Part shown: in pieces, positions 3,562 through 44,825 of the stretch | Layout: every line of letters starts with the position of its first letter | Numbering within the stretch: position 1 is the first letter of the stretch | From: Rhodamnia argentea | Lineage: Eukaryota; Streptophyta; Magnoliopsida; Myrtales; Myrtaceae | DNA: 64,000 nucleotides | Assembly: GCF_020921035.1 (NCBI RefSeq) | Contig: NC_063150.1 | Coordinates: forward strand, 372,001-436,000 | Direction of reading: 5' to 3' | The notes under the pieces: generated by a model | The model's database searches: none | What the model was told of the DNA's origin: nothing | Seen by the model: only the letters and a program-made list of their open reading frames with translations | Program-made: the position numbers and the translations under genes

Positions 3562-4080
3562 AACGAATACCACACATACATCTTTTGTGCTCTTCGCCCA
3601 GAATTTTCCGGATTAGACACGACAATCTCTATCGTATCTCAATCGGGGGCACTCTCATGCGACGCACTTCACGGATTGTAGTTTCAACATGAATGAAGAC
3701 TAGAGTTGAGCAAAATGACCTCCAACGCACCTCCACCTATTGCTTTTGTGTCTCACCGGATACGATTTACACCTCAACATCCTAAAAGAAGGTCTCAAAA
3801 TTTTAATCCATCAAATGCAGGAGCATCCAACACCAGTCCACTCTTGCCTACACCAACATGGTCTCTCAATTATCGGTTGTTTGGTGGAGGTGGCAAGCGA
3901 CGCAACACTGGGCCATTCTATCAAATATGCTGCCGCTAAGGTCATCGAGCCAACAATTGTAGGGAGCACTTTAATCCCCGGTTTGTGACACCGCTACCAC
4001 CTTAGACAAATTATTCAACCCCAACCGGAACGGCTCAACCAGTAGCCTATTATGCCCCTCCTAATAATCCACCTTCTTCC

Positions 4081-5340
4081 ATGGATATCCAATCCTGGTA
4101 TCCCGATTCCGGGGCCACCCACCACATCACGAACAGCGTTTTCAGCCTTTCTCAAGTCACTCCATATACGGGGAACCAACAATTGACTGTAGGTGATGGA
4201 GTTTCTCTTCCCATCACTCACACAGGTACATTCATGCCTTCATCGGGTCCTCAATTCCGTCTTTTCAATGCTTTGGTTGTTCTTAATATCACAAAAAATC
4301 TGTTGTCGGTTTCTAAATTTTCTCGTGATAACAATTGTATTTTCTTATTTTACCCTACCTCATTTGTTGCTCTATGTGCTCATACTGGTCGGGTATTCCT
4401 CCGAGGTCATCTTGAGAATGGTCTTTATCGGATCTCCACCTCCGACGTGTCTCCTTCTACCTTTCTTAGTTCCTTCGGTTTGTGGCATCAACGCTTGGAT
4501 CATGCGTCATCAAATTGAGTAGCACGTCTTCTCCAGTCCACTCAAACTAAATTTTATAAGTCGTCTCCCTCACATTGTACGGCATGTGCACTTAGTAAGA
4601 GTAACACCAACCCCATCCCCCTTCCCCGTCTAGAGCTAAATTTCCTCTTAAACTGGTTCACTTTGATGTTTGGGGCCCGCCCCGAGTCACTTTTGTTTCG
4701 GGATATAAATATTATGTTTGTTTTGTCGATGATCATTCCAGATTTACTTGGTATTATCCATTTACCACTCGTGACCAATTTGCAAACATTTTCAAAGCTT
4801 TCCACAAATTTGCAAAAACTCAATTGTAGTGTCAAATTCAAACAATTCGGTGTGATGGTGCACTAGAATTTCGCCACTCTCTTGAAGTGCGTAACTATCT
4901 CCTCCAATACGATATACATCAGCGAGTATCTTGTCCCTATGCCTCATTTCGGAATGGCACAGCATAATGCAAACACCACCACATTATCGAGACAGGCCTC
5001 GCGCTTATGTGTCACACATAAGTTCCTTACCGGTTTTGGGAGTATGCCTTTGAAACGGCAAGACATCCGATCAACAAGACTCCGACTCCTCTCCCCAACA
5101 ATCTCACTCCTCCGCAGACACTATTCAAAACACCACCAAATATTTCCCACCTCAAAGTTTTTGGGTGTACAATTTTTCCATATTTACGTCCCTATGCTAC
5201 TTACAAGCTTGCCCTCGGATCTCAACGCTGCATCTTTCTTGGCTATCTTCCGGGGTACAAAGGCTATCGATGTTACCGTCCACGAACCAAGAAAGTCTTC
5301 ATTGTGGCTGATGCGATTTTCGATGAGCACACCTTTCCAT
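4081..5340 (+). pseudogene. Copia protease / pre-integrase / integrase relic
   Basis: The first part (4081-4518) reads SWYPDSGATHHITNSV, the DSG of a copia aspartic protease, then NLLSVSKF and a GAG-pre-integrase segment ending LWHQRLDHAS. The frame then stops at 4516. Read across frames, the following sequence still shows CTACALSK (integrase zinc region), VHFDVWGP (first catalytic Asp) and VDDHSRFTWYYPF, then RVSCPYASFRNGTA further on, and finally the KKVFIVADAIFDE motif near 5290-5330 that precedes the variable linker before RT. At least four frame changes or stops separate these motifs. Inactive integrase; old insertion. Confidence 0.85.
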
Positions 5341-5719
5341 TTGGAGATCCACCTTCTCCACCACCATGCTCTGCTCCTCCATCTACAAATGTCGTATCGC
5401 CTCTACCTCCGATGGACAATTCCGAACTGCCCTCCACATATGTAGTAGTAGACCCCGACCCCGAGTCCACATTGTCTCTCTCACCAACTCCATCTGCAAC
5501 TCCCTCCACAGCTCCGGACGCCGACACTTCCAACTCTTCTACTTCGACCACTTCCACCTCGGTTCTAGCGCATCCCATGGTCACTCAATTGAGAGATGGC
5601 ACAATTCATCGGTGAACACTCACAAAAAATCAAACTTTTGCTTTGATTGTAGGCACATATACTCTCATTGAGCCTACTTGCTTCAGTAGGCATCCCGGGA
5701 TCCAAATTGGAGAGCAGCT

Positions 5720-6870
5720 ATGGCAGTAGAATATGACGCCTTAATCAAAAATGGAACTTGGGAACTTGTACCGCCACCTTCTCATGTCCGCCCCATCGGC
5801 TGCAAATGGATTTTCAAAGTCAACCTCGGGTCTAATGGCTCCCTTGAAAGATACAAGGCTCAACTGGTCGCTAAAGGCTATCACCAACAACCGAGAATTG
5901 ACTATATGGAGACATTCAGCCCAGTAGCAAAACCGGTCACCATCCGCACAGTCCTTACTCGTAGCTTACTCCAAGTGTGGCCCATTCGTCAACTAGATGT
6001 CTTTAATGCTTTCCTTCATGGCCACCTATCTGAAGAAGTTTACATGACGCAGCCACAAGGATTTGTTGATCCCCAACGTCCGACTCATGTCCGCCGTTTT
6101 CGACACTCTCTCTATGGTTTGAAACAGGCGCCGCGCGCGTAGTACCAGCGGCTCAATTCATATCTCCTCAAAATAGAGTTCTGTTTATCTACTGCAGACT
6201 CCTCTCTTTTCATTATGCATAATTCTCATTACAGTATTTTTCTACTTGTATACGTGGACGACATCACCCTAACGGGGTCACCTCAAGCTCCTTTGCAAGC
6301 GTCACTCAACTTACTCCAAGGTGAATTTGCCATCAAGGACCTCGAACCACTTCACTATTTTCTAGGAATGGAAGTACAGCATACATCCACCGGCCTTCTA
6401 CTCAATCAAGCCGGGTTCACTCAAGAGATCCCGCAACGGTCCAAGATGACCGAAGCTAGAGTTGCACCTACTCCTTGCACCACCGATGAACCGTTATCTG
6501 CTCGATCCGGTGATCTTATGTCCGATCCTGTGCTTTATCGTAGCATTGTTGGAGCTCTTCAGTACCTCACGCTAACACGCATTGATATAGCTTACTCTGT
6601 GAACACCGCCTATCAGTTCCTTCATGCTCCCACTACCATGCATTGTCAAGCTATCAAGCGAATCCTACGCTATCTTGCCAACACACCACAGCACGGACTG
6701 CACCTTACCTAGACGTCATTCACAGCTCTCCATGCATTCTTCGACGCTAGTTGGGCCAGTGATCGAGACGACCAACATTCTGTTGGTGGCTTCTGCATCT
6801 TTCTTAGTTCCAACCTTATTTTTTGGAGTTCTCGCAAACAACGAATAGTTGCCTATTCTACTCGAGATCG
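5720..6870 (+). pseudogene. Copia reverse transcriptase / RNase H relic
   Basis: 5720-6142 encodes the typical start of copia RT: AVEYDALIKNGTWELVPPP, GCKWIFKVN, LVAKGYHQQ, ETFSPVAKPVTIRTVL, QLDVFNAFLHG, then YGLKQAPRA followed by a TAG. The next frame (6215-6712) holds the catalytic LLVYVDDITLTG, HYFLGMEV, SIVGALQYLTLTRIDIAYSVN and LRYLANTP. An interrupted RNase H portion follows to about 6865. The YVDD box is intact, but the TAG at 6139-6141, the break before 6215 and the stop at 6710 prevent a functional product. Confidence 0.9.
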
Positions 6871-7834: not shown

Positions 7835-7842
7835 TATAAATA
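7835..7842 (+). promoter_or_regulatory. TATA box of the chitinase gene
   Basis: TATAAATA in a CT-rich context lies 46 bases before the ATG at 7888, a usual TATA position for a short plant leader. No other TATA-like string of this quality lies closer to the start codon. Confidence 0.7.
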
Positions 7843-7887
7843 CCTCTCGTTGCATATTCACATCCCTCACACCCATATTTATCCAGA

Positions 7888-8927
7888 ATGGCCAAATCAA
7901 TAGCAAGAGCTCTTCTAAACGTTCTCGTCGTGTCCGGCCTCATTGCCGGATTCTTGCCGGCACACGTCTTTGGTCAAAATTGTGGTTGTGCCACCGACCT
8001 GTGTTGTAGCCAGTATGGGTATTGCGGGACCGGAGAGCAATACTGCGGGGCCGGTTGTCAATCCGGCCCGTGTTCCTCGTCGTCCACGCCCACCACCCCG
8101 AGCAGCGGGGCCTCAGTGGCGGATGTGGTGACGGATAGCTTCTTTAATTCGATAATTGGCCAGGCCGCCGCAAGTTGCGTGGGGAAGAGCTTCTACACTC
8201 GGCAAGCTTTCCTTGATGCTGACGGCGGTTACCCTGAATTCGGCACAGTCGGATCCGCCGATGACTCTAAGCGCGAGATTGCTGCTTTCTTCGCTCATGT
8301 CACGCACGAGACTGGACGTAAGAACCTCCACAACATGTTTAAAGTCCTTTAGTCTATTCTTGCCATGTTTGTTCTTTGCCATGAATTTTATTCACTAGGA
8401 CTTCTAGAAGACACGCAGTTTTATTTGGATGGTGAGCACACATTAAGATTCGATCATTCATGAACTATCGAAACGAAAATATAAGCAACAAGTAACAATT
8501 AATCTTCTTGGGCGCAGACTTTTGCTACATTGAAGAGATAGATGGTGCCTCGAAAGATTACTGCAACGAAACGTACACCCAGTATCCATGCAACCCCAAC
8601 AAAAAATACTACGGCCGCGGACCCCTCCAAATATCCTGGAACTACAACTATGGACCAGCGGGACAAAGCATCGGGTTCGATGGCCTCGGCTCTCCCGAAA
8701 CCGTGGCCAACGACGTGGTCGTGTCTTTTAAGACTGCCTTCTGGTTCTGGATGAACAACGTCCACTCTATTATTACTTCCGGTCAAGGCTTTGGAGCGAC
8801 GATTCGAGCCATCAATGGAGGAGAGTGCGGCGGCGGAAACACCGGCGCGGTTCAAGCTCGGGTTCAGTATTACACTGATTATTGCAAGCAACTTGGTGTC
8901 TCTCCCGGAGATAACCTGACCTGTTAG
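7888..8927 (+). CDS. Class IV chitinase (GH19, hevein domain), two exons
   Basis: Secreted endochitinase predicted to hydrolyse beta-1,4-GlcNAc chains of fungal walls. Exons 7888-8317 and 8518-8927 are joined by a 200-base GT-AG intron in phase 1 and give 279 residues. Residues 1-29 form a signal peptide (cleavage probable before Q30). Residues 30-62 form a Cys-rich hevein chitin-binding domain ([22 protein letters not shown]). A short Ser/Thr/Pro linker to about 75 follows, then the GH19 domain with HETGHFCYIEE spanning the splice junction. By comparison with class IV enzymes E141 and E150 are the likely catalytic acids. [16 protein letters not shown] and AINGGECGG are also intact. Length and the absence of the extra loops and C-terminal vacuolar extension of class I fit class IV (EP3-type), so an apoplastic location is expected. 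The gene looks functional. Confidence 0.95.
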
Positions 8928-15733: not shown

Positions 15734-15967
15734 CTAGTGACCAGGGCCTTGAGGACTAGGCCCTGATTCCAAGCGCTGGAGCCACCAGGACATGCTTTGC
15801 CTCACTTGCTCGGACAGTACAGACGACGAATAAGAAGCCAAGTTGTTCGCTCTCGCAAAATCCTCCGGCAACACCCTCACTGCCTCCGCGCACCGGAGGC
15901 CGAGCAAAGTCACGAAGACAACCAACACGAGCACAATGGGGCCGATCACGGACCTTCGAGCCTCCAT
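15734..15967 (-). CDS. PIP/PIPL-type secreted peptide precursor, copy 1
   Basis: A 77-residue precursor without introns. Residues 1-29 are a signal peptide (VLVLVVFVTLLGL core). A variable region follows that starts RVLPEDFARANNLASYSS, and the C-terminus is SGPSPQGPGH at residues 68-77. The conserved C-terminal SGPSxxGPGH is the hallmark of the plant PAMP-induced peptide (PIP/PIPL) family. In that family the mature peptide is cut from the C-terminus, carries hydroxyproline and is sensed by leucine-rich-repeat kinases such as RLK7 to amplify immunity. The ATG is preceded by a (CT)10 tract in the leader (plus strand 15990-16010) and a TATA box about 100 bases upstream. Its nearest relative is copy 2 at 18905-19138. 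The gene is intact; activity is inferred from the family. Confidence 0.88.
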   Translation of the reverse strand: MEARRSVIGPIVLVLVVFVTLLGLRCAEAVRVLPEDFARANNLASYSSSVLSEQVRQSMSWWLQRLESGPSPQGPGH

Positions 15968-16067
15968 TATCTCCGAAATAATGTAAGTTGAGAGAGAGAG
16001 AGAGAGAGAGTAGTTGAGGGAGGGTTGTAATGTGTTGTGGTGAGGTTGTTGGAAAGAGATGATGGTG

Positions 16068-16077
16068 CATTTATATA
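16068..16077 (-). promoter_or_regulatory. TATA box of PIP-like gene 1
   Basis: TATATAAATG on the minus strand, about 100 bases 5' of the ATG, in a block conserved with the TATA region of copy 2 (19267-19276). Confidence 0.65.
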
Positions 16078-16136
16078 GGGAGGAAGCAGGTGTAGGGTCA
16101 AGCCAAGCTGCTGAGACTAAGGGAGGCTCAAACTCT

Positions 16137-16142
16137 TTGACT
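16137..16142 (+). promoter_or_regulatory. W-box TTGACT in PIP-like promoter 1
   Basis: TTGACT is conserved with the corresponding promoter position of copy 2. A second W-box present in copy 2 (TTGACC at 19361) is changed to TAGACC here (about 16159-16164). Confidence 0.4.
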
Positions 16143-16763
16143 TTGGAGGGATTACGTGTAGACCAAGGAATTTGTAGGCAATATCCCGGAGTCTATACAT
16201 GTGCATCCCAAGTTTGAATATGTCAAAAAAAAAAAAAAATACTCGTGCAATTCTAATTCAAGAAAGTTCATCATAGAACACACATGTTGCTCGTCCAACG
16301 TTGAACGTGCAAGAATGTTGTTACACTTTTGACGGACTTAATATTAATCCTTTATTTGAAAAACCCGATAAAACTTTTTTGTTCAAATGAATTTAGTAAA
16401 TTAATGCTTTTGGTAGCACTGTGAATTGCTCGATTTTGCGACTTTCTTGGGCTCCAGTCCAGCTTGACGTGTTCCATGCCATAGATTCAAAATAAGACAC
16501 TTCTGTCTGAGTCATTTTGCTTTTAAATTATTCCATGGAAAGAAAGAAAAATATACGTTGAAGCTTATGGTCAAGAAAGGATGGTCATGGCTCATGTCAT
16601 CTGGAGGAATCTCCCGTCTCTTTCCCGTATATAGGGAACTCATACGGAACCGTTGATAGCTATAGTCAAAGTGAATTTATCTCATGCACCAAGGCATTAC
16701 ATTTCTCTTTCCGTTTACTTCATGTATATAGAATATATACATACATACACACACATTTAATTT

Positions 16764-17330
16764 TGTCGGTTAAGTGAGTTTAGTTGGTTATGATCGGCAA
16801 TCGGCATGGTTATCGATAAATGTACGATGTAGTTACTGACCATTCCATCAATGACCATAATGTACAGCTTTCAACGACAGTAAAATACAGCCGTCATTGA
16901 GTGACGAAGTGCAGTTGATCAGAGAAAAATGATCGACGAGAGCGCTTCGCGACATGAGTATCAATATCTGCAAAGAAGAATCTACGATTATGTGGAATCG
17001 TTATCGACGAGCAGCAGACGGACATTCAACAAAGTTCGTTGATGGAACGAGCAGCGACTCGGCCAATCTAAATTTGGCCGAGCGTCGGAAGCAATGAGAG
17101 AACATGAGGACAAGGACAACGATCGAGGGCAGGGATACCGAGCGATGGTCGAGTAACCCAATGACCTCGGACGTTGCAACTGTTTATGGGTGAGATAGGC
17201 ATGCGAATAAATGCTGTGCTTAGAAGAATAACTGCTATATATTGAGCGGTTATAAATAAAAGGGATTATTTTATATGGCGGCGTGTAATTATGTAGGGCC
17301 CAACACAATATTCTCGGGTAGACTTTTATC
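16764..17330. other. Inserted segment, possible LTR fragment
   Basis: This sequence lies between PIP copies 1 and 2 and is not shared with the other PIP flanks. It begins with 'tgtcggttaagtgag' after an AC/AT microsatellite and holds GA-rich and TATA-like strings (gttataaataaaaggg near 17240). This resembles a copia LTR, but no partner LTR or target duplication is visible. Confidence 0.25.
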
Positions 17331-17529
17331 TAGTTTTATTTATGTTACTTTGTTTTCGGTTTTTCATCATTTAAGGTCTTTTTACCTTTAAATTCATCTT
17401 ATTTGTCTTTGTTGAACTCCCATCTAAAGTCACCATTGAATTCGTCACGCAAAAGAATCAATAATCAAATTTTTAGTGTAACGATATACATGTAGTATCC
17501 GACCAAAAAATATATAATAGATTTAGGTC

Positions 17530-18640
17530 GTTTTCGGTAATTTTTCCCGAGAAAATTGCAGAGAATTGAGGGGGCTGTACGGTGGAGGGTGGCGAGTGTC
17601 AATAAGCGATCGCGTGGTGGAGTGGTTTACCGGTTACGCCGTGAATTCAACACCACTGCTCGTTCTGGAATTTGTCTTTTCCCCACACCAGGAGAACAAA
17701 TGGCTCGCGCGCTTCCTTCCTGCTTAGAACTCGACAATCTCCAAATAGAATAATTATTCCAATATCCAAACAATATTCAGAAAAGTTTTCACATGACTCT
17801 GTATATGTGCTTCCTGTATTTGCGGGGCCCTTTCCCAAAATATAACATATGAATTTTTGGTAACAAGTATCATCCCCGTCAACATTGAAAATCGACATGT
17901 TTTGGCATGGAAATGTCTGACACAAAAAAAGGGAACAAAATATGGGTACACTAGTTAAATAATTGTGTTGTGCAGCTCCGCGACACCGCCTTCCATGGTA
18001 CCAACCCGAAAATTGAAGTAGCCACACCGACTCCCTAGATCCTGAGGGAGATTGGTAATGACCTTTGATCAATGCCGATTATGGACGATGTCGATGCGTT
18101 TGATTTAAGCTTGTGCTGTCGGATTTTAACTTTGAGACATCTTTAAGTCTAATTCATATCCTTGTTTGGATTGTAACTGTCATATCGATAATACAAGGGC
18201 TGAATACCTTTCACATTTTCCAGTTTCGAGCTTGGTTGTCATATACGAGTGTTTTTTTTTAGAGGGTTGGCATTCATTTGGCGAATTTACGGGAAACACA
18301 TGGACACTGTGCATCATTCAGCAAAGACAAATGAATGTGACAAAAGTGTGTCATAACTTTGTACGTGCGAGATTGGAAACATGCAAAACTTATCTTTTTA
18401 CACTATTAAAGAAACACGGTATTGATTTTTCATTTTTGGCATGTGATGATGTCCATAGAATTTATCCTTCAATCAGAATGTCCAAATCGTGAAAATCTCC
18501 CACCACGTGAATCTTCCCACATCACGACTATCGTTTAAGATTCAATGCATGCTGCGCGTAAACTTTGGGAAGCTCTTCACCAAGAACACTTCAAAGCAAG
18601 ATGATGTTCTCAAGGATTAATTCTTCATGTATTATGATGC
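17530..18640. repeat. Duplicated 3' flank of PIP-like gene 2 (pair with 21890-22920)
   Basis: Segments such as 'gagaattgagg', 'tttaagcttgtgc', 'tgataatacaagg', 'atttcgagct.ggttgtcat' and 'gggaagctcttcaccaagaa' recur in the same order at 21940-22770. The two flanks were therefore copied together with the PIP genes. A 65-residue open frame is partly kept in both (17556-17753; 21906-22103), but I do not recognise it and do not call it a gene. Confidence 0.7.
17615..17654 (+). other. tRNA-like Pol III A/B box pair (SINE or tRNA relic)
   Basis: TGGTGGAGTGG (17615-17625) fits the A-box pattern TRGYNNAGNGG. AATTCAACACC (17644-17654) fits the B-box GGTTCRANNCC except for its first two bases, at tRNA-like spacing. 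A TTTT lies about 20 bases downstream. The paralogous site near 21980-22010 is more degraded. No cloverleaf can be folded with confidence. Confidence 0.3.
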
Positions 18641-18904
18641 CCAAAAGAAGAAGCGAAAGAATTGAATAAAGAGAAGAACGGTATTATTGCTCGTGTTCAC
18701 ATCGTTTCCACTGTATCTTGGTTCACATGAAAATGAAATAAGTAATGAATAAACGGAGTAAAAGGAACAAGAAAAATGTGTCTACTGTATTGCCGTATAC
18801 AAATGAAGCAAAAGCCATGGTGTATCTCGCCCTCTCGTTGCAGGCGAAGCGAGAACGAGCTCGTGGGGATCGCGTGTTGACTCGTGACGGTGGACTGAGT
18901 CGGG

Positions 18905-19138
18905 TCAATGACCGGGGCCACTAGGACTAGGTCCTGATTCCAAGCGCTGGAGCCACCACGACATGCTTTGCCTCACCCGCTCGGACAGCACCGGCGACGA
19001 ATACGATGCCAAGTTGTTCGCTCTCGCGAAATCCTCCGGCAACACCCTCGCCGCCTCCGTGCACCGGAGGCCGAGCAACGCCACGAAGACGACCAACACG
19101 AGCACGATGGTGCCGATCGCGGACCTTCTGGCCTCCAT
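18905..19138 (-). CDS. PIP/PIPL-type secreted peptide precursor, copy 2
   Basis: A 77-residue intronless precursor, very close to copy 1: signal peptide 1-29, RVLPEDFARANNLASYSS, and C-terminal SGPSPSGPGH. The main differences are in the hydrophobic core and one residue of the terminal motif (Ser in place of Gln after SGPSP). A long (CT)24 leader tract lies 24-71 bases before the ATG (plus strand 19162-19209), and the TATA box is at 19267-19276. Two W-box cores lie about 200 bases upstream. The role expected from the family is a secreted damage or immune peptide perceived by a neighbouring cell. The 5' flank is shared with copy 1 and the 3' flank with copy 3. Confidence 0.88.
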   Translation of the reverse strand: MEARRSAIGTIVLVLVVFVALLGLRCTEAARVLPEDFARANNLASYSSPVLSERVRQSMSWWLQRLESGPSPSGPGH

Positions 19139-19160
19139 TATCTCCGAAATACTGCAAGTT

Positions 19161-19161
<1 letters not shown>

Positions 19162-19209
<48 letters not shown>
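19162..19209. repeat. (GA)24 microsatellite in the leader of PIP-like gene 2
   Basis: A perfect 48-base GA run (CT in the transcript). The paralogous position in PIP-like gene 1 (15990-16010) has only 21 bases, so the tract has expanded or contracted since duplication. Confidence 0.95.
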
Positions 19210-19212
<3 letters not shown>

Positions 19213-19266
19213 TTGAGGGAGGGTGGTAATGCGTTGTGGTGAGGTTGTTGGAAAGAGATGAGGGTG

Positions 19267-19276
19267 TATTTATATA
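19267..19276 (-). promoter_or_regulatory. TATA box of PIP-like gene 2
   Basis: TATATAAATA on the minus strand, about 129 bases 5' of the ATG. The extra distance relative to copy 1 is explained by the longer CT tract. Confidence 0.7.
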
Positions 19277-19337
19277 GGAGGGAAGCAGGTGTAGGGTCAA
19301 AGCCAAAATGCTGACGCTGAGGCAAAGCTCAAATACT

Positions 19338-19366
19338 TTGACTTCGGAAGGAATTACGTGTTGACC
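19338..19366 (+). promoter_or_regulatory. Paired W-boxes in PIP-like promoter 2
   Basis: TTGACT at 19338-19343 and TTGACC at 19361-19366, with an ACGTG core between them. Paired W-boxes are typical of WRKY-controlled, elicitor-responsive promoters, which fits the known elicitor induction of PIP genes. Binding is inferred. Confidence 0.45.
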
Positions 19367-19947
19367 AAGAAGCCCGCCTGCAATGTCCCGGCGTCTAGGT
19401 CCGGTCCATACATGCGAATGCTTCCCCGGGTTTGAATATGTCAAAATAACTCTCATGGACAATTTTGATTTAAGGGTATTTATCAAAGATATTTACAAAA
19501 GTATAACATGCATGTCGCTCATCCAAAAATTTCGGATATTTCTACACTTTCGACGAACCTAATATTAGTTCTTTAATTGAATACCCGATTAAGAAAAAAT
19601 TCAAATTAATTCAGTAAACTTTCATGCTTTTGGTAGCACCACGAATTACTCGATTGTTGAGACTTTGCTGGGCTCTAGTCCAGCTTCACGTGTTCCTCGT
19701 AATAGATTCAAGATGGGGCTCTTCTGTCTGAGTCATTTTTTCTTTTAAATTATTCCACGAATAAAAAGGTCACCAAAAAAAAAAAAAAAAGCAAAAGCAA
19801 AAGGTTGAAGCTTATGGTCAAGCAAGGATGGTCACGGCTAACGTGATCTGGAGGAATTTTCTGTCTCCTTCCCGTAAAACGTGGAAAACTAGCATGAAAA
19901 ATCAAAGTGAAGTTATCTTTGTACACAAAGGGCATTACATATCTCTT

Positions 19948-20541
19948 GGATTAATACCGTGAAAAAATCTCAAATTTTATATACTTGTAACAAATTTATT
20001 TCAAACTAGCTTTTGGGTAACCAAAAACTTCAAATCGGCACATGCGTGACACATTTACCGTATATTAGCTTTTATCAAATTTTACCGTGAAATTGCTAAG
20101 TTGGATGTTGCATGACGATAACTCAGTTGACCTGACATGTAGAAGGATAAATTTATATGTGTACATGTACTTTCGATGAAGGAAGGATAACAATTTTCCG
20201 AATATTAGGTTCTATGAACCTAGCTCCACCACTAGTAAAAGGTCTGCTCAACTATGCCCGGAAATCTATCTGTTCATTTCTCGGATTTTCACGTGCACTT
20301 GCCGGATGAACTTAGCTATTGTCACGTGTCATCCAGCTTACCAATTTCACGATAAAATCAATGAAAAGCTAACGTGAATGTGTCATGCGTGTACCAATTT
20401 GAGGTTTTAGGTGACCCAAAAATTAATTTGAAGTAAATTTATCACGGATGTATCAATTTGAACTTTTTAGTGATTCAAAAATTAATTTGAGGTGAATTTG
20501 TTCTTGGTGTACTACTTTGTGATATTTTGTGGTATTAATCC
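19948..20541. mobile_element. MULE-like MITE (GGATTAATACC family) inserted upstream of PIP-like gene 2
   Basis: A 594-base element with long inverted ends: GGATTAATACCGTGAAAAAAT at left and, reversed, GGATTAATACCACAAAATAT at right. It is flanked by a 9-base near-duplication (atatctctt / atttctctt). The paralogous flank of PIP-like gene 1 (16692-16720) reads 'ggcattacatttctctttcc' without the element, which is an empty site. Long TIRs with a 9-base TSD are the signature of Mutator-like elements. No coding capacity. Confidence 0.85.
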
Positions 20542-21198
20542 ATTTCTCTTTCCATTCACTTCATAAATCTCATTTGACATAGAGATTTAATCGCATTGTA
20601 CAACATATACGTAGCATGTTTGTGGAAAAGGAACCACAAATGCAAATTAGTCCAAAGTACCTAGAAAGAAGATATGCTGACTACGAAAAACTGTTTAACC
20701 TAAAAGAGGACAGTTCTTCGGTGGACCAGGTATGTTCTACACAAGAGAAAGCAAACCCAAATCATAAAAATCGCTGTTGTTGCATATATTAAGGGTGAGC
20801 TACCCGTTTTCTAATTAAACTAAAATGCATTGTGTGACATCTACTGTTGTTAATGTTAGCGGACACCCATTTTCCTCTAATTGAGCCATACTTCTCGGAC
20901 TCGGTTGACTAAGGCCATGACCATATCTGAATATCTAGTACGTAATATCTTTATTAAGCATTAGTATTGTACCTAATTCCCACAAAATGTTCACGTGATG
21001 ACATGTCGAATATAATTAGCAATATCTTGTTACTTATAGAAAAAAACATGGCTCCCAATTGATCGACTTAGTTTATTTTCGCATGCAGCACAAGCTTTGC
21101 ATTTGCGTATAAATCTGGATAAACCGCGTCCACATGCTCTATCCTCTTTCCGAAATCTAGGCTTTTTTTTTTTGTGCCAAAATCTAAGTTTTAAATGC
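20542..21198. other. Intergenic, no gene seen
   Basis: AT-rich sequence between two elements of the GGATTAATACC family. I see no open frame with features. Confidence 0.5.
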
Positions 21199-21800
21199 AC
21201 GATTTTCATGAAAAACCCCAAACTAATATATTTGCGATAAATTTACCCAAACTATTTTTTTGACTATGAAAAACTCAAAATTAGTACATTTGTGGCAAGT
21301 TTACTTCAAACTATTAATTTTAATACAAAAATCCTAAACTGGTACATCTATATTGAATTTATCATAAATTAATTTTTTGACCACGAAAAATTTCAAATTG
21401 GTACATCTGTTACCTAAAAAAAAAATTAAACTGGTACACTTGTGACAAATATAACCTTCGTTAATTTTCGTTAAATTGGATTAATACCCCAAAAAATCCC
21501 TAAACTAATATACTTGTGATAAACATAGGTCTTAAATTGGTACCCCTATCAATTGCCAAGTTTCTTTCAACTCAATAATTTGACAAGAAAATTTAATAAA
21601 AGGTAAATTTGTCACAGGTGTGCCATTTTGGGGTAAATTTGTCACAAGTATACCAATTTAGGATTTTTCGTGGAAAAAAAAAATCATTTGGACTAAATTT
21701 GTCGCAAGTGTTTTAGTTAGGAGTTTTTGGTGGTCAAAAAGTTAGTTTGGGATAAAATTGTCATATGTCCACCGGTTTGGAGTTTTTTGCGATACTAATC
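21199..21800. mobile_element. GGATTAATACC-family TIR element, decayed copy
   Basis: This stretch repeats the family phrases ('aaaactggtacactt.tgacaaat', 'gggtaaatttgtcacaagtataccaattt') in opposite orientations in its two halves. It starts 'cacgattttcatgaaaaac' and ends 'ttttttgcgatactaatc', which are decayed versions of the TIRs. Its order suggests internal rearrangement or nesting, since a further 'ttaataccccaaaaaat' lies near 21482. Confidence 0.6.
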
Positions 21801-21889
21801 TTTTTCTATATCTGACATCTTCATTTATTTTTTATTTTTATTTTTCTCCTTTTCTTTTGGTAGGTAAGGCAGATTCAGTTCAGACCAAG

Positions 21890-22920
21890 AAAAATAATAG
21901 AATTTTTGGGGAAACATATGGGAGCTTTTTTAGCGGGAAAGTTGCAGAGAATTGAGGAAGGGGTGGCGTACGGTGGAGCTGTCGACCGGTTGCGCCTTGG
22001 ATTTAACACCACTGGGATTGTCATTGTCTTTTCCCCTCCCCCAAAACAACCAATGGCTAGCGCTCTTCGTGCCTGCTTAGAACTTAAAGGAGTCCTCATA
22101 TAGAGGAATTATTTTTATAATTCGAAAAAAATATTCAGAAAAGTTTCGCATGACTTTGAATATTGATATAAATAAGAAACCAAAAGTAGTTTGTTTATAA
22201 TAAACGTCGCGAGCCTTTTCAAGAAAAGTCCGGTAACAGATAAGTGTCGTTGTGTCGACACAAAAAATTAACGTGTTTGATGTGGACATGTTGATACGAA
22301 ATAAGAGAATAGAAAATGGGTACACTAGTTAAAGAATTGCGTAGCACTGCTTCGCAAAGCCAACTTCTAGTGGTACTAACTTGAAAAATGAAGTAGTCAC
22401 AAAGACTCTTTAGATCCCGGTGGCCTTGATCGACGCCAATTCGTTTGGTTTAAGCTTGTGCCGTTATATTTTAACTTTTATGCATCTTTTAAGTCTTATT
22501 CATATTCCATTCTGGACTGTAATCGTCTTATTGATAATACAAGGCCTGCATATATTGTTTGTTTCTATTTGCCAATTTCGAGCTCGGTTGTCATTGATGA
22601 GTGCTTTTTTTAGAGGATTGGCATCGACAAATTTACATAACAAAAGTGCATTACAACCTTATGCGTACGATTGGACCAAAAAAAAAAAAAAAAAACCTTA
22701 TGCGTACGAGATTGGAAAGCTTTCTTTGAACAATGTCTAAATGCTGCACGTCTACTTTGGGAAGCTCTTCACCAAGAAGACTTCAACGGATTGGCGTTTT
22801 AAGTTTATGAATATAAGGAGCGTTTAGGACCCGTTGTCAAGCAATGTGGGAAAGTAACAATTCGTAAGGATCGACTGTTCATATATTATCATGCACTAAA
22901 CAAGAATAAAGAGAAACGAA
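21890..22920. repeat. Duplicated 3' flank of PIP-like gene 3 (pair with 17530-18640)
   Basis: Collinear with the 3' flank of PIP-like gene 2. It has drifted considerably, with many indels and an inserted A run at 22679-22695. Confidence 0.7.
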
Positions 22921-23081
22921 AGAATTGAATAAATATAGGAACGTTATTATTGCCCGTGTTTACAACCGTTTCCACATCTTGATTCACAAAGAGAATGGAA
23001 AAGTAACGAATAAAAATAATACGACAGAAACAACAAAAACGATTGTCTTCTGGTTTCTGTATTGCTGGTACAACTGTGAAG

Positions 23082-23297
23082 CTAGTGACCGGGGCCTCTC
23101 GGACTTGGCCCGGAAGCCAGGCGCTCGAGCCAGCAAGCCACGGTGGTTCTCGCCCTCTCGTAAGCTGCCGACGAGTACGTGGCAAGGTTGTTTTCCCTCG
23201 CGAAATCCTCCGGCAAAGCCCGCGCCGCCTCCACCCCAAAATGGCTCGCAACGGTCGCGAGAACGAGCAGAACAATCACGAACTTGCAGAAATTCAT
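23082..23297 (-). CDS. PIP/PIPL-type secreted peptide precursor, copy 3 (diverged)
   Basis: A 71-residue intronless precursor with a signal peptide (residues 1-24, KFVIVLLVLATVASHFGVEA), then RALPEDFARENNLATYSSA and a C-terminal SGPSPRGPGH at residues 62-71. It keeps the family architecture and spacing but differs from copies 1 and 2 at most positions of the signal peptide and middle region, so it is the oldest branch of the array. A minus-strand TATATATA (23399-23407) lies about 100 bases 5' of the ATG. The Arg in the terminal motif may give a different mature peptide specificity. The gene looks functional. Confidence 0.88.
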   Translation of the reverse strand: MNFCKFVIVLLVLATVASHFGVEAARALPEDFARENNLATYSSAAYERARTTVACWLERLASGPSPRGPGH

Positions 23298-25511
23298 CTC
23301 TTCTTTTTCCTTTCTTCAAACGGGAAGCGAGATCTTTCGATTGGTGATTCAACTTTTGGTTGGAGAAGTCGTGGAGAGCCGGCTTGGGACGCGGTGTGAT
23401 ATATATAGCGGAAAGAATAGAGTGCAACAAGCAAGTGGTGCTGGCTCGCAGAGTTGGAACTCAGAAGTGAGAACGGGCGCTTGTGGGGATTGCGTGTTGA
23501 CTCGCGATGGTGGACTGATTCGCGGGGGTGGGGGGAGGAGGGATCTGCCGGTTCGCCATGTTTGAAAGTTTGAATGAGTCAAACCCTCCAATCTCATGCG
23601 CTTTGGTTTTGATTATCCTCATTAGATGCCTTCCTTTATAATATATTAATCTTTTTCTGTCATATGTGATGCAATAATATTATTTTTCTTTGTCAACTAC
23701 ATTTTGTCTATTTCATTCCATTTCATTATAATTCTCATGAGTTACGCTAGCAAAGAGAACACACGTAGCATGTGTGCAAAAAAATTAACATTTAAAAGAT
23801 CTTGCGAAGTCACTTTATTAGCAAGTATTTGTATCGTTGACGAATGGAAAGAAATTATACACAGCGGCTCCATTTATTTCACAAAAAAAGAAGGTATGTT
23901 TGGCATATATTTTCCATAAAGTCATTTCCAAGAAAAGAATAATATTTTTCTGTGTTCGGTTGAAACCGGAAATGAGATGAAAAATATTTTCCATCATTTG
24001 ATATGGAAAATATGGTTTGATTTTCCTCCATGCACTCCTTTTGATAATTTTTTATTCATTTATCATTTTTTCAATTTTTTTATTTTTAATTCTTAAAAAA
24101 TTCAAAAAATTCATTTTTGTTTCTCTTTTCTTTTCTTTTTACTTTTTCTTCTTCTTCTAGCCAAGCCCCTGCTTCGCCAAATTTGGTGAGGCTTGGACTC
24201 ACTTGCCTGCGGCCAGTCGTTGGCTGTGGCTGTGGCGGCGACCAACCAAAAAAGAGGGAAAAATAAAAAAAAAAAGAAAGAAAAAAATTTAAAAGTAAAA
24301 AATTCTGATTTTTATAAAATAAAAAGAAAATATAAAATCCATTAATACACGACACCATACACATTTCCTTTTGATTTCTAATAAGGTATATTTATTCCAT
24401 GGATGGATGTGTACTTTTCCCATCTACTCGATCACGTTTGAATCCTTCAAATATTGGTAATGGAGAATTCGCGTTGACATTTTCCGCAAGAAAAAGTTAA
24501 TTCGCTGCCTTGTAGTTTCGCCTATGTACATACCATGTTTTGTACCATTTAGACTATATCCCCCTTATGCCGACCGGACGGGGATTCGCCCAAAGCATTC
24601 TCCGGACTGTTTCCGGTGCTCTTTTGTATTATTCGGAGTTCCATTTTGCGCCATACGCTTTAGCAAAATGAACGGGACGTGTTTGGAGTTAGTTTGGTAA
24701 CCGCATTGTTTTACATGTATCAGAAAACTTAATGACAAGTGCGAATTATTTCTGTAACGACCTCGCTCGGTCTATGTAAGCCTGCAAGAACAATACCTTG
24801 TGGCGATCATTTGGGGGGTCAGTATTGGCTGACGAACCACTCAAGTGAACTTCCTCAATCGGCCAGCAAGATACTGATGTAGAACTTTGAGATATCCCAA
24901 AATCCTTCACTTAAAGAATTCACCGTTCCCCCTCATCCGATGTGCGGCCAGCCATAATCCTGACTCGCCACCATCCTATAAGGCTGTTAGGAGCAGCATC
25001 TCCTCTGAAATCTTCTCTCTCCGCCCTCATCAAAACGGTCACGGCCCTAGTCCGTCGGTGCACGACACATCCGTTGGAAGAGCCCTGTTCTGATATGATT
25101 CAAGCTCTCAAAAGGAATACTCTAAGCTGTAACTATTTGGATTGGGTATCGTCTTTTGAATTAAAACTTTATTTGCAATTGACTTAATAAAAAAGAATAA
25201 TAATAATAATAAAAAGCAATAGGGAATATCTCCTTAATTGCTTCCGTAAACTCTAGGGACGTGAAAGGACAAGAAAGTGGGAACTCATCCTCGCATGGTT
25301 TGACGGAGAAATTGCCGGAATTTGACCTTTCTGATCATTTTCAAACACCGTTGCAAATTCCGAGGACTAAATATACAAGAAACAAGAAGGTGCGCACAAG
25401 GAATTCTTTTTGGTCGACGAGCCCAAAAGTCTTCACCCCTGACGAGTTCAACGATTTACCCAAAAAATAAAATAAAATTCGTGACACATTTTCGTTGCGC
25501 GATTGATTCGA
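23298..25511. other. Intergenic: promoter of PIP-like 3, repeats, coding-like scraps
   Basis: 23399-23407 is the TATA box of PIP-like gene 3. 23478-23525 repeats the sequence immediately 3' of PIP-like gene 2 (ggggattgcgtgttgactcg). 23900-24420 is an AT-rich MITE-like segment with a GC-rich core (24160-24245). 24887-25093 and 25261-25470 have open frames of coding-like composition (the second ends SPKVFTPDEFNDLPKK) but no family I recognise. Confidence 0.45.
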
Positions 25512-28514: not shown

Positions 28515-29444
28515 ATTAGATTTTTAGGTCTTTGATTCGAGTTCGGACGTCTATTTCCGGCTGCAACAACCGCGTACTGCGAAATATGGAAGGAACAAGT
28601 CCTGTCGGCGTTGATCTTCAGGACCACAGCGGGCTGCAAGCCCTCCTACTGCAGAAGATGCTTGTCCTCGTACATCACCACGGCCATTGGCGATGGAGTT
28701 GCAAAGTGCGGTGCCCCGGTTTGCAATGCCGAGCCAGGCTCGACCCCCTCCAGGTCAAAGAGCTCCTCTCGAGAAAAACCTTTCTCGCATGGTGCGAGAG
28801 TCTGTGCGAGTCACACGTTCTAGGTCTTGAGAGGTGCTACTGCCCGAACTCGAATTGCCGAGAGGTCATTGTGAACGAGTGTGGACGGAGGGGCATTGCC
28901 AAAAGATTCGAGTGTCCTAATTGTCATCGACTCTGTTGTTTCCGGTGTGCGAGCGAATGGGTTGAAGGTCATCGATGCAGGGGAAGGCATGATGTGGACA
29001 TTAGTCTATTGGAGCGCCTTGCGAACAGGAAGAAGTGGGCGCAGTGCTGTAATTAGTCGAGTGCAGTGGAGGTTGCGATCGAATCTATTGCAGGTAATTA
29101 AGAGTTGTTGTGGTTTCCTTTTACATATTACCATAAGACCATTTACATGTGGGGAGACGATACTATTTGTCCATGCTTTTAATCTACAAACCATGCTTAC
29201 AAACAATCTAAGGGGCTTTGGTTTCGATATGAACTGCAGATGCGAAACGGAGTTTTGCTACAGATGCGGGCGCGGGTATGAGAGCAGCAGCTATGGTTGT
29301 TTATGTGAACTAAGAACTGGGTCGTTTCGGGAAGACTTAGTAGCTTTTCTAGCTACATACATCTTCTTAATGACTATCGTGTTCATTATAGTCCTCATCG
29401 CCACAGGAATGAACTCGAGTCGACAAGAACCGGCATTCCGTTGA
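28515..29444 (+). pseudogene. RBR (RING-IBR-RING) ubiquitin ligase-like, copy 1, broken, with C-terminal TM tail
   Basis: Aligned to copy 4, the start codon has become ATT (28515). RING1 lost ligands (CEIC became CEIW; CKHSSC became CKPSYC). A one-base deletion near 28707 shifts frame within RING1. The IBR (CPNSNC, FECPNCHRLCCFRCASEW) is readable, then a deletion at 29047-29056 brings a stop inside RING2. The intron 29094-29239 (GT-AG) and exon 2 (29240-29444) survive and encode CETEFCYRC, GCLCELRTGSFREDL and a hydrophobic segment (AFLATYIFLMTIVFIIVLIATG), a likely membrane anchor missing from copy 4. Several independent lesions show that it cannot make an active ligase. Confidence 0.9.
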
Positions 29445-35410: not shown

Positions 35411-36279
35411 GCCGAAGCTCATGAAGTAGGGAATGACCTAAGCTCGTGAAAACTTCACTTTTGAGCCAGGCCGAAGCTCATGAAGCAGTTGGACTAGATT
35501 TATCTCTGACATAGCATAGGGCAGAGTAAGGGCCTCATTCTTGTCCAGGACTTACAATGGTCATTGATTAAATTAAAAAAAAATAACTTGGAGTTATTTC
35601 CGTTCCCCGATTTAAAAGAAGAAATGATTAGAACACTATCCTTAATCTTTTTTTATGAGAAAGACCGTATGTTTTGGGTCACAAAAAATAAAAAAACTAA
35701 ATAATTAAAATTACTGTAGCGTTCGCTCCTTCGAGAACAGGTGGCTCACAACATGCTATTATCCTTACAATAATCCAAAGACTGTTATACTAGCAAAGTC
35801 TCATTTGATGAAAGAGTTATAGTTCCAGTCGCAATATGGTGAAAACACGGTAAGCATCCCTCCACATCTCATAGTTTTTTCATATTTATCTTGATTAAGG
35901 AACGGATATATTTGGGTTTTTGAAGAAAGCCAATCCATTCTTAATTTGAAACCATAAACTTTCCCAAATATTCCATTAAGGCCCATGACAATTCGTTTAA
36001 AACGGATGAAGGAATGTAATCCGACAACGTACAAAATTCAGTGAATCTCAAAAACAATAGAAATTCTCTCATCCACGATATTTGAAATTGAGATTTTCGT
36101 TGTAAACTTCAACATGTATTTGCTCCGAGAAGATAAAGGAAAACTTCAAAAAAAGATAAAGAGTACTCTTACGAGAAACGCTTATATGCCTGTAATTAGG
36201 GTTCTTTTCTCACAAACATCCTATCTCTGGTTCAATTTAACTCTTAGTCTCACAAATAACCTAGATATAGCCACTAACA

Positions 36280-37127
36280 ATGAGATTTTTAGGTCTTCGA
36301 TTCGAGTTCGGACGACAATTTCCGGCTGCAACAACCGTGTACTGCGAAATATGCATGGAACAAGTCCCGTCGGCCTTGATCTTCAGGACCACAGCGCGCT
36401 GCAAGCACTCCTCCTGCAGAAGATGCTTGTCCTCGTACATCACCACGGCCATTGGCGGTGGAGTTGCAAACGTGTGGTGCCCCGGTTTGCAATGGCGAGC
36501 TAGGCTCGACCCCCTCCGGGTCAAAGAGCTTCTCTCCAGAAAATCCTTTCTCACGTGGTGTGAGAGTCTGTGCGAGTCGCACGTTCTAGCTCTTGAGAGG
36601 TTCTACTGCCCGAACTTGAATTGCCGAGAGGTCATTGTGAACGAGGGTGGACGGAGGGGCATTGCCGAAAGATTCGAGTGTCCTAATTGTCATCGACTCT
36701 GTTGTTTCCGGTGTGCGAGCGAATGGGTGGAAGGTCATCAATGCAGGGGAAGGCATGATGTGGACATTAGTCTGTTGGAGCGCCTTGTGGACAGGAAGAA
36801 GTGGGTGCAGTGCCCTAATTGCCGCATATTATTCGAGCGCAGTGGAGGTTGCGATCGAATCTATTGCAGGTAATTAAGAGTTGTTGTAGTTTCCTTTTAC
36901 ATATTACCATAAGACCATTTACATGTGGGGAGATGATACCGTTTGTCCATGCTTTTAATCTACAAGCCATGTTTACAAACAATCTAAGGGGCTTTGGTTT
37001 CGATAAGAATTGCAGATGCGAAACGGAGTTTTGCTACAGATGCAGGTGCGAGTGGGAGAGCCGCTATGGTTGTTTATGTGAACTACGAACTGGGTTGTTT
37101 CGGGAAGACTTAGGCTGCGCATGGTAA
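36280..37127 (+). CDS. RBR-type ubiquitin ligase-like, copy 4 (joinable, impaired RING1)
   Basis: Exons 36280-36869 and 37016-37127 (GT-AG intron, phase 2) give 233 residues. RING1 is at about 22-72 (C22, C25, C41, H43, C46, C49, C67), but the last ligand is Trp72 where the family has Cys. The IBR has C110 and C115 (YCPNLNC) and FECPNCHRLCCFRCASEW. RING2 is CPNC (178-181), a putative catalytic Cys191 in GGCDRIYC, then CETEFCYRC across the splice. RBR ligases take ubiquitin from an E2 onto the RING2 cysteine before passing it on. The C-terminus ELRTGLFREDLGCAW ends in foreign MITE-like sequence and lacks the membrane tail of copy 1. This is the best preserved copy, but loss of one zinc ligand and the tail makes function doubtful. 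It is much shorter than ARIADNE proteins and lies nearer the short plant RBR proteins. Confidence 0.65.
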
Positions 37128-41573: not shown

Positions 41574-43303
41574 TCATTCCGCATTCGAGGGCAATGCAGA
41601 AGAAGATGAAACGGAAGATTGCTTAGAAGGAGAGGCAGTAAATGGAGATAACTCGATTAGAGAACTGGATGGTTCGCCACTAGTTGTGGCCCCGTAGGAT
41701 GAGATAAGCGACGGAGCTGATATCGAATTCGAATGTGCACGAGATGACAGGAATCTCGGAACTAGCGATTGAGACGGAAGACTAGGCAGTGAAGCGTTGA
41801 ACTTCAGAACATTTACCGTGTCTCTTATGGAAGGCCGACATAGACGGTCTGTTTGCGTGCACCAAAGCCCCACAATCATCAAGCGCTCCATTTGCTTCTC
41901 GTTGAAGTGCTCGCCTAGCTTCAGGTCCGCCGCATGTAGTAGCTTTCCGGTTCCATAGGGCTCCCACACCCACTGCATCATAAGCCGTGTTTCGCTTCCT
42001 TCTTCTCTAGGGTCGGTAAGTCTTCTTCCGCATGCTATTTCTAACAGGACAGCTCCAAAGCTGTAATTGTCGGATTCCTCGGTCGTTCTGGCTGTATAGA
42101 CATATTCAGGAGCCATATAGCCCACGGTTCCAGCTGGTATGGTTGTTTGTGACCCTTTGGCACGGTCAACCAGCCTAGCCAATCTGAAGTCCCCTAGTTT
42201 CGCGGTGAAATCTGCATCGAGCATGATGTTGCTTGGCTTTATATCCCTATGATGACGCATTGCATCCACCCTTCGTGGCGGTATAGCGATGCAGAGGATA
42301 TGTCCTGAGCAATTTTATACCTCCTTTCCCATGTTAGGAAAGCTTTGCTGTCGAAAAAATTGGAGTCTAGGCTACCATTACGCATCAATTCGTACATGAG
42401 GAGGAGCTCTTTTTTCTCGTGACACCAGCCGACGAGCTGGACTAAGTTTCTGTGCCAGAGTTGGCTGATGATCTTCACTTCTTTATCGGCCATGGCTTGC
42501 TCGAGGGACTAAGAGACTAGAGCTCAATACCCACGCATTAATAGCATGCGCCTTGATTCCGTATCCCGTTGTAGCCGAGAAACTGAAAGTCGCACATTCT
42601 GGCAAATAGTTCTTCAAGTTAATTGGTTGGTAAAGACTGGTATAATTGCCGTAGTCACCTGCAACTGTAACACTTGAATTCTGTGTGCTAGAACCATTAG
42701 TGACCTCGGCATGAAGTTGTCGACCATATTGTATGTGGTACTCCAACCAGTCGGCACAAACATTTTTCGCAGAAGGTATGCTATTTACATTGATGCCCAC
42801 ATGAACGCAGGGTGGATCCCATGAATTCCAATAGCAAGTATCGAATTCTACAGCAACGAATGGGAGTACTAGAGTTGAATGGACTTGGCTCAATTACAAT
42901 CGCAAAATAAACTCCGGAGGAATTTCCGGGTATCTGAGATCCTCTAGGAGTAAGATAGAAAATCATTCCATCAGCATAGTCTGGGAAGGCTGCAGATTTG
43001 ACAGTGAAATTAAACCGAGCGCTGAAGTCCGCCACATTTCCTGTGGTATTATCCCAAAGGTGCATCGATTGATTATATGCAGCCCAACCACTGATGTTAT
43101 TGAAGCTCCCCGATAGGTCGTCAAGAGTAAGCCGTATAACGTTACCGGCTCCTGTTACATCTGCTTCTCCCTGACTGGATATGTCGCTCGAGTTGAAAGG
43201 TGGGAAAGTGTGAGAAATTTTTTCTAAAGGTTGCTGAACCTGCAAAATGGACATTAGGAGAGAAGATAGAGACTGCCAATAGTAGAATACGTCGAAATTC
43301 CAT
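41574..43303 (-). pseudogene. L-type lectin receptor-like kinase, broken and internally deleted
   Basis: The parent would be a plasma-membrane lectin kinase. Here the signal peptide (MEFRRILLLAVSIFS, from 43303) is out of frame with the legume-lectin domain (43260-42490: FNFTVKSAAFPDYADGMIFY, GVYFAIVIEPSPF, VAVEFDTCYW, VGINVNS). A one-base insertion at about 42858 breaks the lectin domain. Its end (INAWVLSSSL) runs directly into the kinase alphaC region (EVKIISQLWHRNLVQLVGWCHE), so the transmembrane segment, glycine loop and catalytic lysine are deleted. A one-base deletion near 42247 precedes HRDIKPSN, and DFG has become DFR. VGYMAPEYV, the C-lobe and a Ser-rich tail then run to 41574. Not functional. 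Confidence 0.92.
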
Positions 43304-44825
43304 TGTCGGGAGGCAACAAACAAGATCAAGCATTGAGATCTTATGTGGGTCTCTTGATCTCAGGTGACCATGTGCTCGGCTTCCTCCTCATGTACAGTCC
43401 TGGACAGAAGCCTGGAAAATGAGCGTACATGAGTTCTCTCGTCCAGGACTGATTCATTCCATGGGATCGAAAACAGTTAAAAGTGGAAACTTTGCAATGA
43501 ACAAAGTCTATTCCTAAGTTGAGGAATGAAGGTCAACGATCACAAATTGGATACGAGAGAAACGAAATGGAAACAAGGACATCAAGGATGTAATACTATA
43601 TTGTAATTGGAAGCATGTATCAGACAATGAACATGCTGATATGCAATGTAATGAAAACCAACGGTCTCAGCAATTTGATTGGGAGTCTGGGCAGGCCCTT
43701 GAACGTCTCCTCCACTATTAGACTTAGATTGATTATGATAATGTAAAACAGAGAGCTTTACATGACCCATCAACATGGAGAACGAGACGCGCAACGAATG
43801 ACTTAGTCATACTTGAGAGGTCAGACTCCTGCAAATGTTGGACCAGCTCTCGACTTTGATGCAATTAACTTTCTGATGAAAGTATGTTGTTGCCATGAGC
43901 ATACACTCTAGAAGCCGGAAGGCCAGGCGCGTAGAATTAGGTAGAAGTGACAATTTATACTATGATGACATTCGCAGAGCCGGCTATTAGTATGGCACTG
44001 CTGCAGTATACCAACTATGTATCAATGGCATTGGCAAAGATTATCAAACCAGGTACAGCATATCAAGCGCAGAAAAGAAGGAGATTTACGGAGAAAAAAG
44101 AGCGGAAACAAAGTATTGGTAGGGATGCAAAGTCAAAATTCAATAGGGTACACTCAAGATCAAGGTCTGCTTGAATTTCCAGGGTGTTTGGATAAGGCTT
44201 TAATTGTCTCGCGCTTGAACTTCCTAAGAGCAGATGAATTCCAACGGAACAAGGTCCATGCTATAATTCTGAAGCTCCCGCTTTAAGCCTTCTTAGAAAA
44301 CTAAATGAGCCTTGATGTTAAGCTGGTGCTAGACATCAGCTCAATAATTCGTGGAGCATGAAATTCATTTTCTTTATTACAATAGGTAAAAGTCCTTGCA
44401 CATTGTAGTTGGAATCTTTCGCAGCTTGACTAGGGTCAACAGTTTTAGAATGGATTAATTTTCACCCTGAAATCGATGATCAAAAACCGAACTAGACATG
44501 GTGTATGTGGAACCGAGAAGGTGGGATTCCAACCTGTCCAACCTGGAACCAGACAGGTCAGTGCTGGTCCATCTAGGACAAGAATGGTACTATTCCTAGG
44601 AGATATTTTTGAAAAATCTTTTATTTTCTTCCTAAAAAATTTCTAAATATATTGAAAGTTGCTTTAATGTACAACTAATTGAATAATATCTGGGAAGTTA
44701 CTAGTAAAAGAAGATATTACTCCCATAAATAATCCTTACTTTTTGCTATTACTGAATTAGAAAATAAAAAATATACGTTGGGCCAGTTCCACTGGTTGGT
44801 TACACTTTTTCCACATGATTAGGGA
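43304..44825. other. Intergenic, no gene seen
   Basis: 5' flank of the lectin kinase relic. The open frames at 43582-43794 and 43947-44286 have no recognisable motif. Confidence 0.5.

Follow-up and report, generated by a model that had tools for sequence, protein, structure and literature searches.

PIP1-type peptide genes in a Rhodamnia argentea array and their relatives in a probable Pack-TYPE transposon family

Precursors of plant PIP peptides (prePIPs) have been described as intronless genes encoding a signal peptide followed by an Arg, then a variable region, an SGPS motif and a terminal GxGH, the core being flanked by Arg or His (PMC4526919, PMC4154866). Assayed members include AtPIP1 (RLASGPSPRGRGH) and AtPIP2 (VKHSGPSPSGPGH; PMC10704477) and the potato peptide StPIP1_1 (RLPSGPSPRGPGH; PMC10667265). 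For AtPIP1 and StPIP1_1, apoplastic localization, dependence on RLK7 and a contribution of BAK1/SERK3 have been reported (PMC10667265, PMC4154866); induction of FRK1 in Arabidopsis by StPIP1_1 requires RLK7 (PMC10667265), and the activity of AtPIP1 is higher with hydroxyproline at position 6 (PMC4154866). For PIP/PIPL genes without synteny, movement through an RNA intermediate was suggested earlier (PMC4526919). Pack-TYPE transposons are non-autonomous elements with inverted ends and captured host DNA, among which a hAT group with 8-nt target-site duplications (TSDs) has been described (PMC8903248). Here we analyze a 64,000-nt stretch of Rhodamnia argentea DNA (contig NC_063150.1, positions 372,001 to 436,000; hereafter the window) that contains three PIP1-type genes, c1, c2 and c3, together with the relatives of these genes elsewhere in the same genome, among which capture of a PIP gene pair by a Pack-TYPE transposon appears well supported. 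The three genes add unremarkable members to the known PIP/PIPL family, and the capture is more interesting than the array.

All three genes lie on the minus strand as uninterrupted open reading frames (ORFs) and were located by ORF and motif scans: c1 at 15734..15967 (77 residues, C-terminus RLESGPSPQGPGH), c2 at 18905..19138 (77 residues, RLESGPSPSGPGH) and c3 at 23082..23297 (71 residues, RLASGPSPRGPGH). An earlier note on this DNA had described three intronless precursors of these lengths on one strand, and its description holds, introns being judged from the ORFs. Equally borne out, in three of three genes, is the layout that it gave: a signal peptide, a conserved segment (here R-x-LPEDFAR-x-NNLA-x-YSS) and a C-terminal SGPSP(Q/S/R)GPGH, with a variable residue that differs in every copy (Q in c1, S in c2, R in c3). 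The segment, delimited by alignment and by regional ratios of nonsynonymous to synonymous substitution rates (dN/dS), spans residues 31-48 of c1 (15824..15877) and of c2 (18995..19048) and residues 26-43 of c3 (23169..23222). Predicted mature 13-mers, placed by reference to those of AtPIP1 and StPIP1_1, would be encoded at 15737..15775, 18908..18946 and 23085..23123, on the minus strand like the segments. A six-frame scan of all 64,000 bases found three occurrences each of SGPx..GxGH, PEDF and NNLAxYSS, every one of them inside c1, c2 or c3. In a whole-genome search with c2 as query, c1 was matched at E 2.1e-39 and c3 at E 3.1e-16, and the three genes are thus paralogues by descent rather than by chance. 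Protein identity (90% for c1-c2, 54% for c1-c3) makes c1 and c2 one subtype and c3 another, a division that the earlier note does not mention; SGPS is preceded by RLE in c1 and c2 and by RLA in c3.

The assignment of these genes to PIP/PIPL in the earlier note stands for all sequence features tested (signal peptide, Arg, SGPS, GxGH, single ORF, core flanks and 13-mers). Signal peptides are predicted from hydrophobic 14-mers with mean Kyte-Doolittle values of 3.30, 3.48 and 2.71 (c1, c2 and c3), followed by (A/T/V)EA, and a conserved Arg comes right after them as EA(V/A)R in three of three genes. SGPSPxGPGH is followed by a stop, with no further residues, in all three; Arg and His stand on either side of the core; and the single ORFs of 77, 77 and 71 residues, taken by themselves, are intronless and shorter than the family limit of about 110 residues. 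By direct comparison, the c3 13-mer shares 12 of 13 residues with each of AtPIP1 and StPIP1_1, the latter differing at position 3 only, while c1 and c2 share 10 of 13 each with AtPIP1, and c2 shares 10 of 13 with AtPIP2. Candidate membership in two other peptide families was rejected: IDA/IDL peptides would have (R/K)(R/K)HN and a further tail after SGPS, where these precursors have PxGPGH and a stop, and CEP peptides would end in SPG(I/V)GH without SGPS, which is present here before a PxGPGH end. A sequence search of PDB with c2, the only query used, gave no significant match. The features listed support PIP1-type as the best filing for all three predicted precursors.

Among described genes, that of AtPIP1 shares with c1-c3 the signal peptide, the Arg after it, a single SGPS core, the GxGH end and the lack of introns; the window peptides differ from it in that all three carry P, and AtPIP1 R, at position 11. 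A further possible difference concerns the post-signal segment, conserved among the window genes (from which alone it is known here), whereas the consulted sections of PMC4526919 and PMC4154866 call this region of prePIPs variable. StPIP1_1 is made from a precursor of 76 residues, and the consulted part of PMC10667265 gives no account of the linkage or history of its gene. Linked PIP/PIPL genes comparable to the window array occur in Arabidopsis (PIPL5-PIPL4-PIPL8 and PIP2-PIPL3; PMC4526919), but the consulted part of that paper mentions no transposon-borne copies of them, unlike what we find for the Rhodamnia relatives.

Whole-genome protein searches returned 19 matches with c2 as query (E up to 0.001) and 22 with c3 (E up to 1), counts that are lower bounds; distant PIP/PIPL genes with unlike precursors would escape such searches. 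Outside the window the matches define 11 loci, on contigs C2, C4, C5, C6 and C8, all of which were retrieved. They carry 18 relatives (10 c1/c2-type and 8 c3-type copies), and at 7 of the 11 the gene pair stands in the ancestral order. SGPSPxGPGH does not occur in any of the six frames of these 11 loci, and most of the dispersed copies have stops, frame shifts or missing parts as well. Among the members of this lineage recovered by these searches, only c1, c2 and c3 retain an intact core.

Aligned in gene sense, the dispersed loci have non-coding flanks in common that are absent from the window and break off sharply at inverted ends. These ends begin with TAGACCTGTCAAA or close to it at eight loci on the 5' side and six on the 3' side, and the family has terminal inverted repeats in common, TAGACCTGTCAAA-like at the 5' end and the inverse at the 3' end. 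Three elements possess both ends and a perfect 8-bp TSD: L009 (1575 bp, TCCACTAT), L012 (942 bp, CATTTGAC) and L016 (1393 bp, TTCAATCA), the chance of each such duplication being about 2e-5 for a fixed end pair. A second candidate TSD at L012, with two mismatches, was set aside as a coincidental pairing that involves a poor end. Judged from the 8-nt duplication and the ends, the element is probably a Pack-TYPE capture of the hAT superfamily. It resembles the described Pack-hAT elements in being apparently non-autonomous, with captured host DNA, inverted ends and 8-nt TSDs; it differs in its cargo, a signaling-peptide gene pair with the DNA between, and in that PMC8903248, in the part consulted, annotates rice and maize, while the Rhodamnia family was identified without the pipeline of that study.

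The same ends are found on elements without a recognizable PIP gene. A search with the L016 5' end yielded 52 candidates, of which 40 were scored, on contigs C1-C11 of the 74 in the assembly; 32 of the 40 start at the first base, and PIP-bearing loci account for 5. The 3' end of L016 gave 45 matches from the 40 scored of 317 candidates. We compared the L016 element with 12 loci (L019-L030) that score highly in the 5'-end list, lie outside the PIP-bearing loci and have no PIP gene detectable by tblastn. At least the first 219 bp were matched in all 12 and parts of the last 240 bp in 11, in seven of them to the last base, while L016 bases 451-950 (of 1393 bp) were matched by none. TSDs are perfect in four of these loci (L023, L024, L028 and L030) and have one mismatch in three (L021, L022 and L026); none was found in the other 5 of the 12. 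In L019, L020 and L021 the match extends about 50 nt into the c1/c2-type gene of L016, and these three may therefore be deletion derivatives. L009, L012, L016 and L019-L030 lie on contigs C2-C8; those in which both termini and a TSD were seen measure about 0.9-1.9 kb, and interiors differ across the family.

The L016 element contains the first gene at 364-554, the tail of that gene at 555-635 and the second gene with its flanks at 713-1025, of which 555-635 and 713-1025 are collinear with window positions 23549-23035. A tree of 20 sequences places the transposon c1/c2-type copies in a single clade (ultrafast bootstrap 91), with c1 and c2 apart from them (74), and the transposon c3-type copies in another clade (86) beside c3. 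DNA homology of the transposon copies to c1 and c2 stops at about codon 12, and protein matches to c2 start between codons 13 and 22 in 7 of the 10 copies and between codons 1 and 5 in the remaining 3, the copy that reaches codon 1 having CTC there; the c1/c2-type gene was thus apparently captured without its upstream region. The c3-type gene was captured together with its own. These relationships are most simply read as one capture, before the c1/c2 split, from the lineage of the window locus, and the window array likely represents the donor lineage. The array itself has no transposon ends: the best matches to either end across the window reach at most 40 nt, at E 0.014 or worse, and the best match to the end string, at 37593, has seven mismatches.

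In calling the locus a tandem array of three genes, the earlier note was right about three genes on one strand, but the array has a more involved past than three simple tandem copies would have. The c1 and c2 genes share a block of coding and upstream DNA (15738..16709 and 18909..19947, both minus) that aligns at 74.6% over 1065 columns. Downstream of c2, 17616..18787 (minus) is homologous in three pieces (E 8e-49, 2e-12 and 2e-24) to the DNA downstream of c3 at 21972-23052. Between c2 and this shared downstream DNA sits a 27-nt relic of c3-type coding sequence (18812..18838, minus), 89% identical to 23135-23161 and 92.6% identical to bases 915-941 of the L016 element (E 1e-5). Upstream of c3, a relic of a c1/c2-type 3' tail (23463..23549, minus) is 84.7% identical to the c2 tail at 18846-18902 and 82.8% identical to L016 bases 555-635. 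Simple tandem triplication is ruled out by these flanks, which hold relics of the other subtype beside both c2 and c3. Because of the relics, the simplest account would be tandem duplication of a two-gene unit (c1/c2-type, then c3-type) followed by loss of opposite halves, the second gene from one unit and the first from the other, with c1 as a further copy of the c1/c2 half.

At the home locus the precursors are under purifying selection. The c1-c2 pair has dN 0.058, dS 0.354 and dN/dS 0.16 (Nei-Gojobori; Fisher p 2.9e-5 from rounded counts). Resolved by region across the three copies, as the earlier note had suggested, dN/dS was lowest in the post-signal segment for c1-c3 and low in both segment and 13-mer for c2-c3: 0.27 (c1-c3) and 0.92 (c2-c3) in the signal peptide, 0.05 and 0.11 in segment 31-48, 0.29 and 0.39 in linker 49-64, and 0.11 and 0.08 in the mature 13-mer, dS values near or above 1 being rough. 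Within the segment c1 and c2 are identical in protein (0 of 18 residues changed), and each differs from c3 at 3 of 18, against 31 of 58 (c1-c3) and 30 of 58 (c2-c3) in the whole non-mature part, segment included. Permutation gave p 2e-4 (c1-c3) and 3.5e-4 (c2-c3) for this conservation, which agrees with the view in the earlier note that the segment is more conserved than a mere spacer would be; since c1 and c2 are close relatives and not independent, the result is in effect one deep comparison. The RxLPEDFARxNNLAxYSS segment is itself under purifying selection, and its function would most likely lie in precursor processing, folding or trafficking.

Putative promoter elements precede each gene on the minus strand. 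TATA-like sequences stand 110 bp before the ATG of c1 (TATATAA, 16071..16077), 138 bp before that of c2 (TATATAA, 19270..19276) and 110 bp before that of c3 (TATATAT, 23401..23407). W-box-like sites occur at -134 and -175, and further at -607 and -702, for c1; at -162, -205 and -228, and further at -683 and -994, for c2; and at -205 and -285 for c3. The upstream 1 kb of c1, c2 and c3 holds 4, 5 and 2 TTGAC(C/T) motifs, respectively, where the window mean is 1.66 (64 one-kb pieces) and these counts are reached by 6, 3 and 29 of the 64 pieces. The W-boxes hint at elicitor control of c1 and c2 but give no such hint for c3.

Our reading of the whole, which we regard as quite probable, is that c1, c2 and c3 are three working PIP1-type genes, that the array arose from a duplicated two-gene unit, and that this unit was captured by a hAT-like Pack-TYPE transposon. 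Each gene would make a secreted prepropeptide from which the signal peptide is removed and apoplastic proteases release the C-terminal 13-mer RL(E/A)SGPSP(Q/S/R)GPGH, probably with hydroxyproline in its SGP; perception of the peptide by a receptor kinase like RLK7, with SERK/BAK1 as co-receptor, would amplify defense signaling. After tandem duplication of the unit, c2 and c3 would each retain one half, and c1 would have arisen as one more copy of the c1/c2 half. Uptake of the two-gene unit by the non-autonomous transposon would probably predate the c1/c2 split; the transposon would then have spread copies of the unit, the core motif being lost in every transposon copy found.

Several observations weigh against this reading or parts of it. 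No Pfam family matched any of the three precursors in a sequence search, and the c3 promoter has no W-box excess. Our script found no TSD at the other 8 of the 11 PIP-bearing loci, where one or both ends are unrecognizable (in L014, weak). Bootstrap values of 74-91 at the key nodes are modest, and the lineage may have been captured more than once. Three transposon-borne c3-type copies have open frames from an ATG: L014 (2309-2524 in gene sense, 71 residues, core FGLSPRGPGH with the stop retained after it), L013 (from 2889 in gene sense, 92 residues, SGLSPRGPDH and then read-on) and L017 (from 2667 in gene sense, 81 residues, SWSSPRVP and then read-on). Between transposon copies, dN/dS by plain count is 0.49 for the c1/c2 type, to which the L016 copy contributes only 15 codons (coordinate limits), and 0.32 for the c3 type; counted by transversions only, it is 1.18 and 0.51, compared with 0.13 for the c1-c2 pair. 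Both counts omit local duplicates (L010, L013 and L015 for the c1/c2 type; L010, L013 and L031 for the c3 type), and the L018 c1/c2-type fragment is in the plain count but was left out of the tree and the transversion count. By the transversion ratio of 1.18 the c1/c2-type copies look neutral; those of the c3 type look so only incompletely, and neutral decay of all transposon copies is supported in part only. Some c3-type copies may have stayed useful for a time, or the counting may lack resolution.

A first alternative needs no transposon: the three PIP genes would form an ordinary tandem array, and the dispersed relatives would be decayed segmental or tandem duplicates. It would fit the local-duplicate look of some dispersed loci (L009/L010, L013/L014 and L015/L017, and, by the tree, L009/L031). 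We consider it very improbable, as the homology that unlinked loci share breaks off at inverted termini, 8-bp TSDs flank the element at 3 of the 11 loci, and these termini recur, on contigs C1-C11 of 74, in members where no PIP gene is recognizable. The transposon could instead be the source of the working genes, the window array then deriving from transposon-borne copies that lost their ends. The collinear stretch common to c3 and the transposon, which runs from the upstream gene's tail as far as the 3' side of c3, would agree with this direction too, yet c1 and c2 possess both a start codon and upstream DNA where most transposon c1/c2-type copies begin only at codon 13-22, no transposon ends lie near the array, and the transposon copies form clades of their own; such an origin is hard to credit.

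A third alternative concerns function: the c1, c2 and c3 peptides might serve a developmental PIPL role and not immunity. Some PIPs act outside immune signaling (PMC13157962), and the uneven W-box pattern, with an excess upstream of c1 and c2 and none upstream of c3, can be counted on this side. The 13-mers, however, are nearest to AtPIP1 and StPIP1_1, both immune-active, and we judge a developmental role unlikely, if a good deal less so than either of the two origins just discussed. A more speculative extension of the proposed capture, which we would put forward only as a doubtful possibility, is that the pair taken up by the Pack-hAT consisted of working phytocytokine genes, the second accompanied by its upstream region, that functional PIP genes were spread in this way for some time, and that the L014 and L013 frames may still make altered peptides. 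If so, DNA transposition would be one route for PIP/PIPL genes out of their home locus.

The gene pair offers a natural control within one genome: selection acts on it at the home locus, and its copies elsewhere decay. The transposon-borne copies would represent a concrete DNA-level dispersal route for signaling-peptide genes. Among the open-licence literature matches listed (titles and abstract starts, in two cases the first 15 of 1,476 and the first 10 of 696 hits), none reports a PIP gene in a transposon.

Other features of the window lie on both sides of the array. Close to it lies a further gene related to defense, a chitinase gene at 7840-8927 on the plus strand, in two frames and apparently two exons (Chitin_bind_1 and Glyco_hydro_19), preceded by the broken frames of a Copia-type retrotransposon at 4006-6712 (plus; RVT_2 match at 5690-6139). 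Between 28520 and 39347, repeated ORF fragments resemble, by eye, RING-between-RING ubiquitin ligases and are perhaps a decayed tandem cluster; the domain search gave an IBR match at 36271-36873 and none for 28520-29053. At 41574-43359 on the minus strand, ORFs with kinase and legume-lectin domains lie in separate frames and point to a lectin receptor kinase gene that may be broken.

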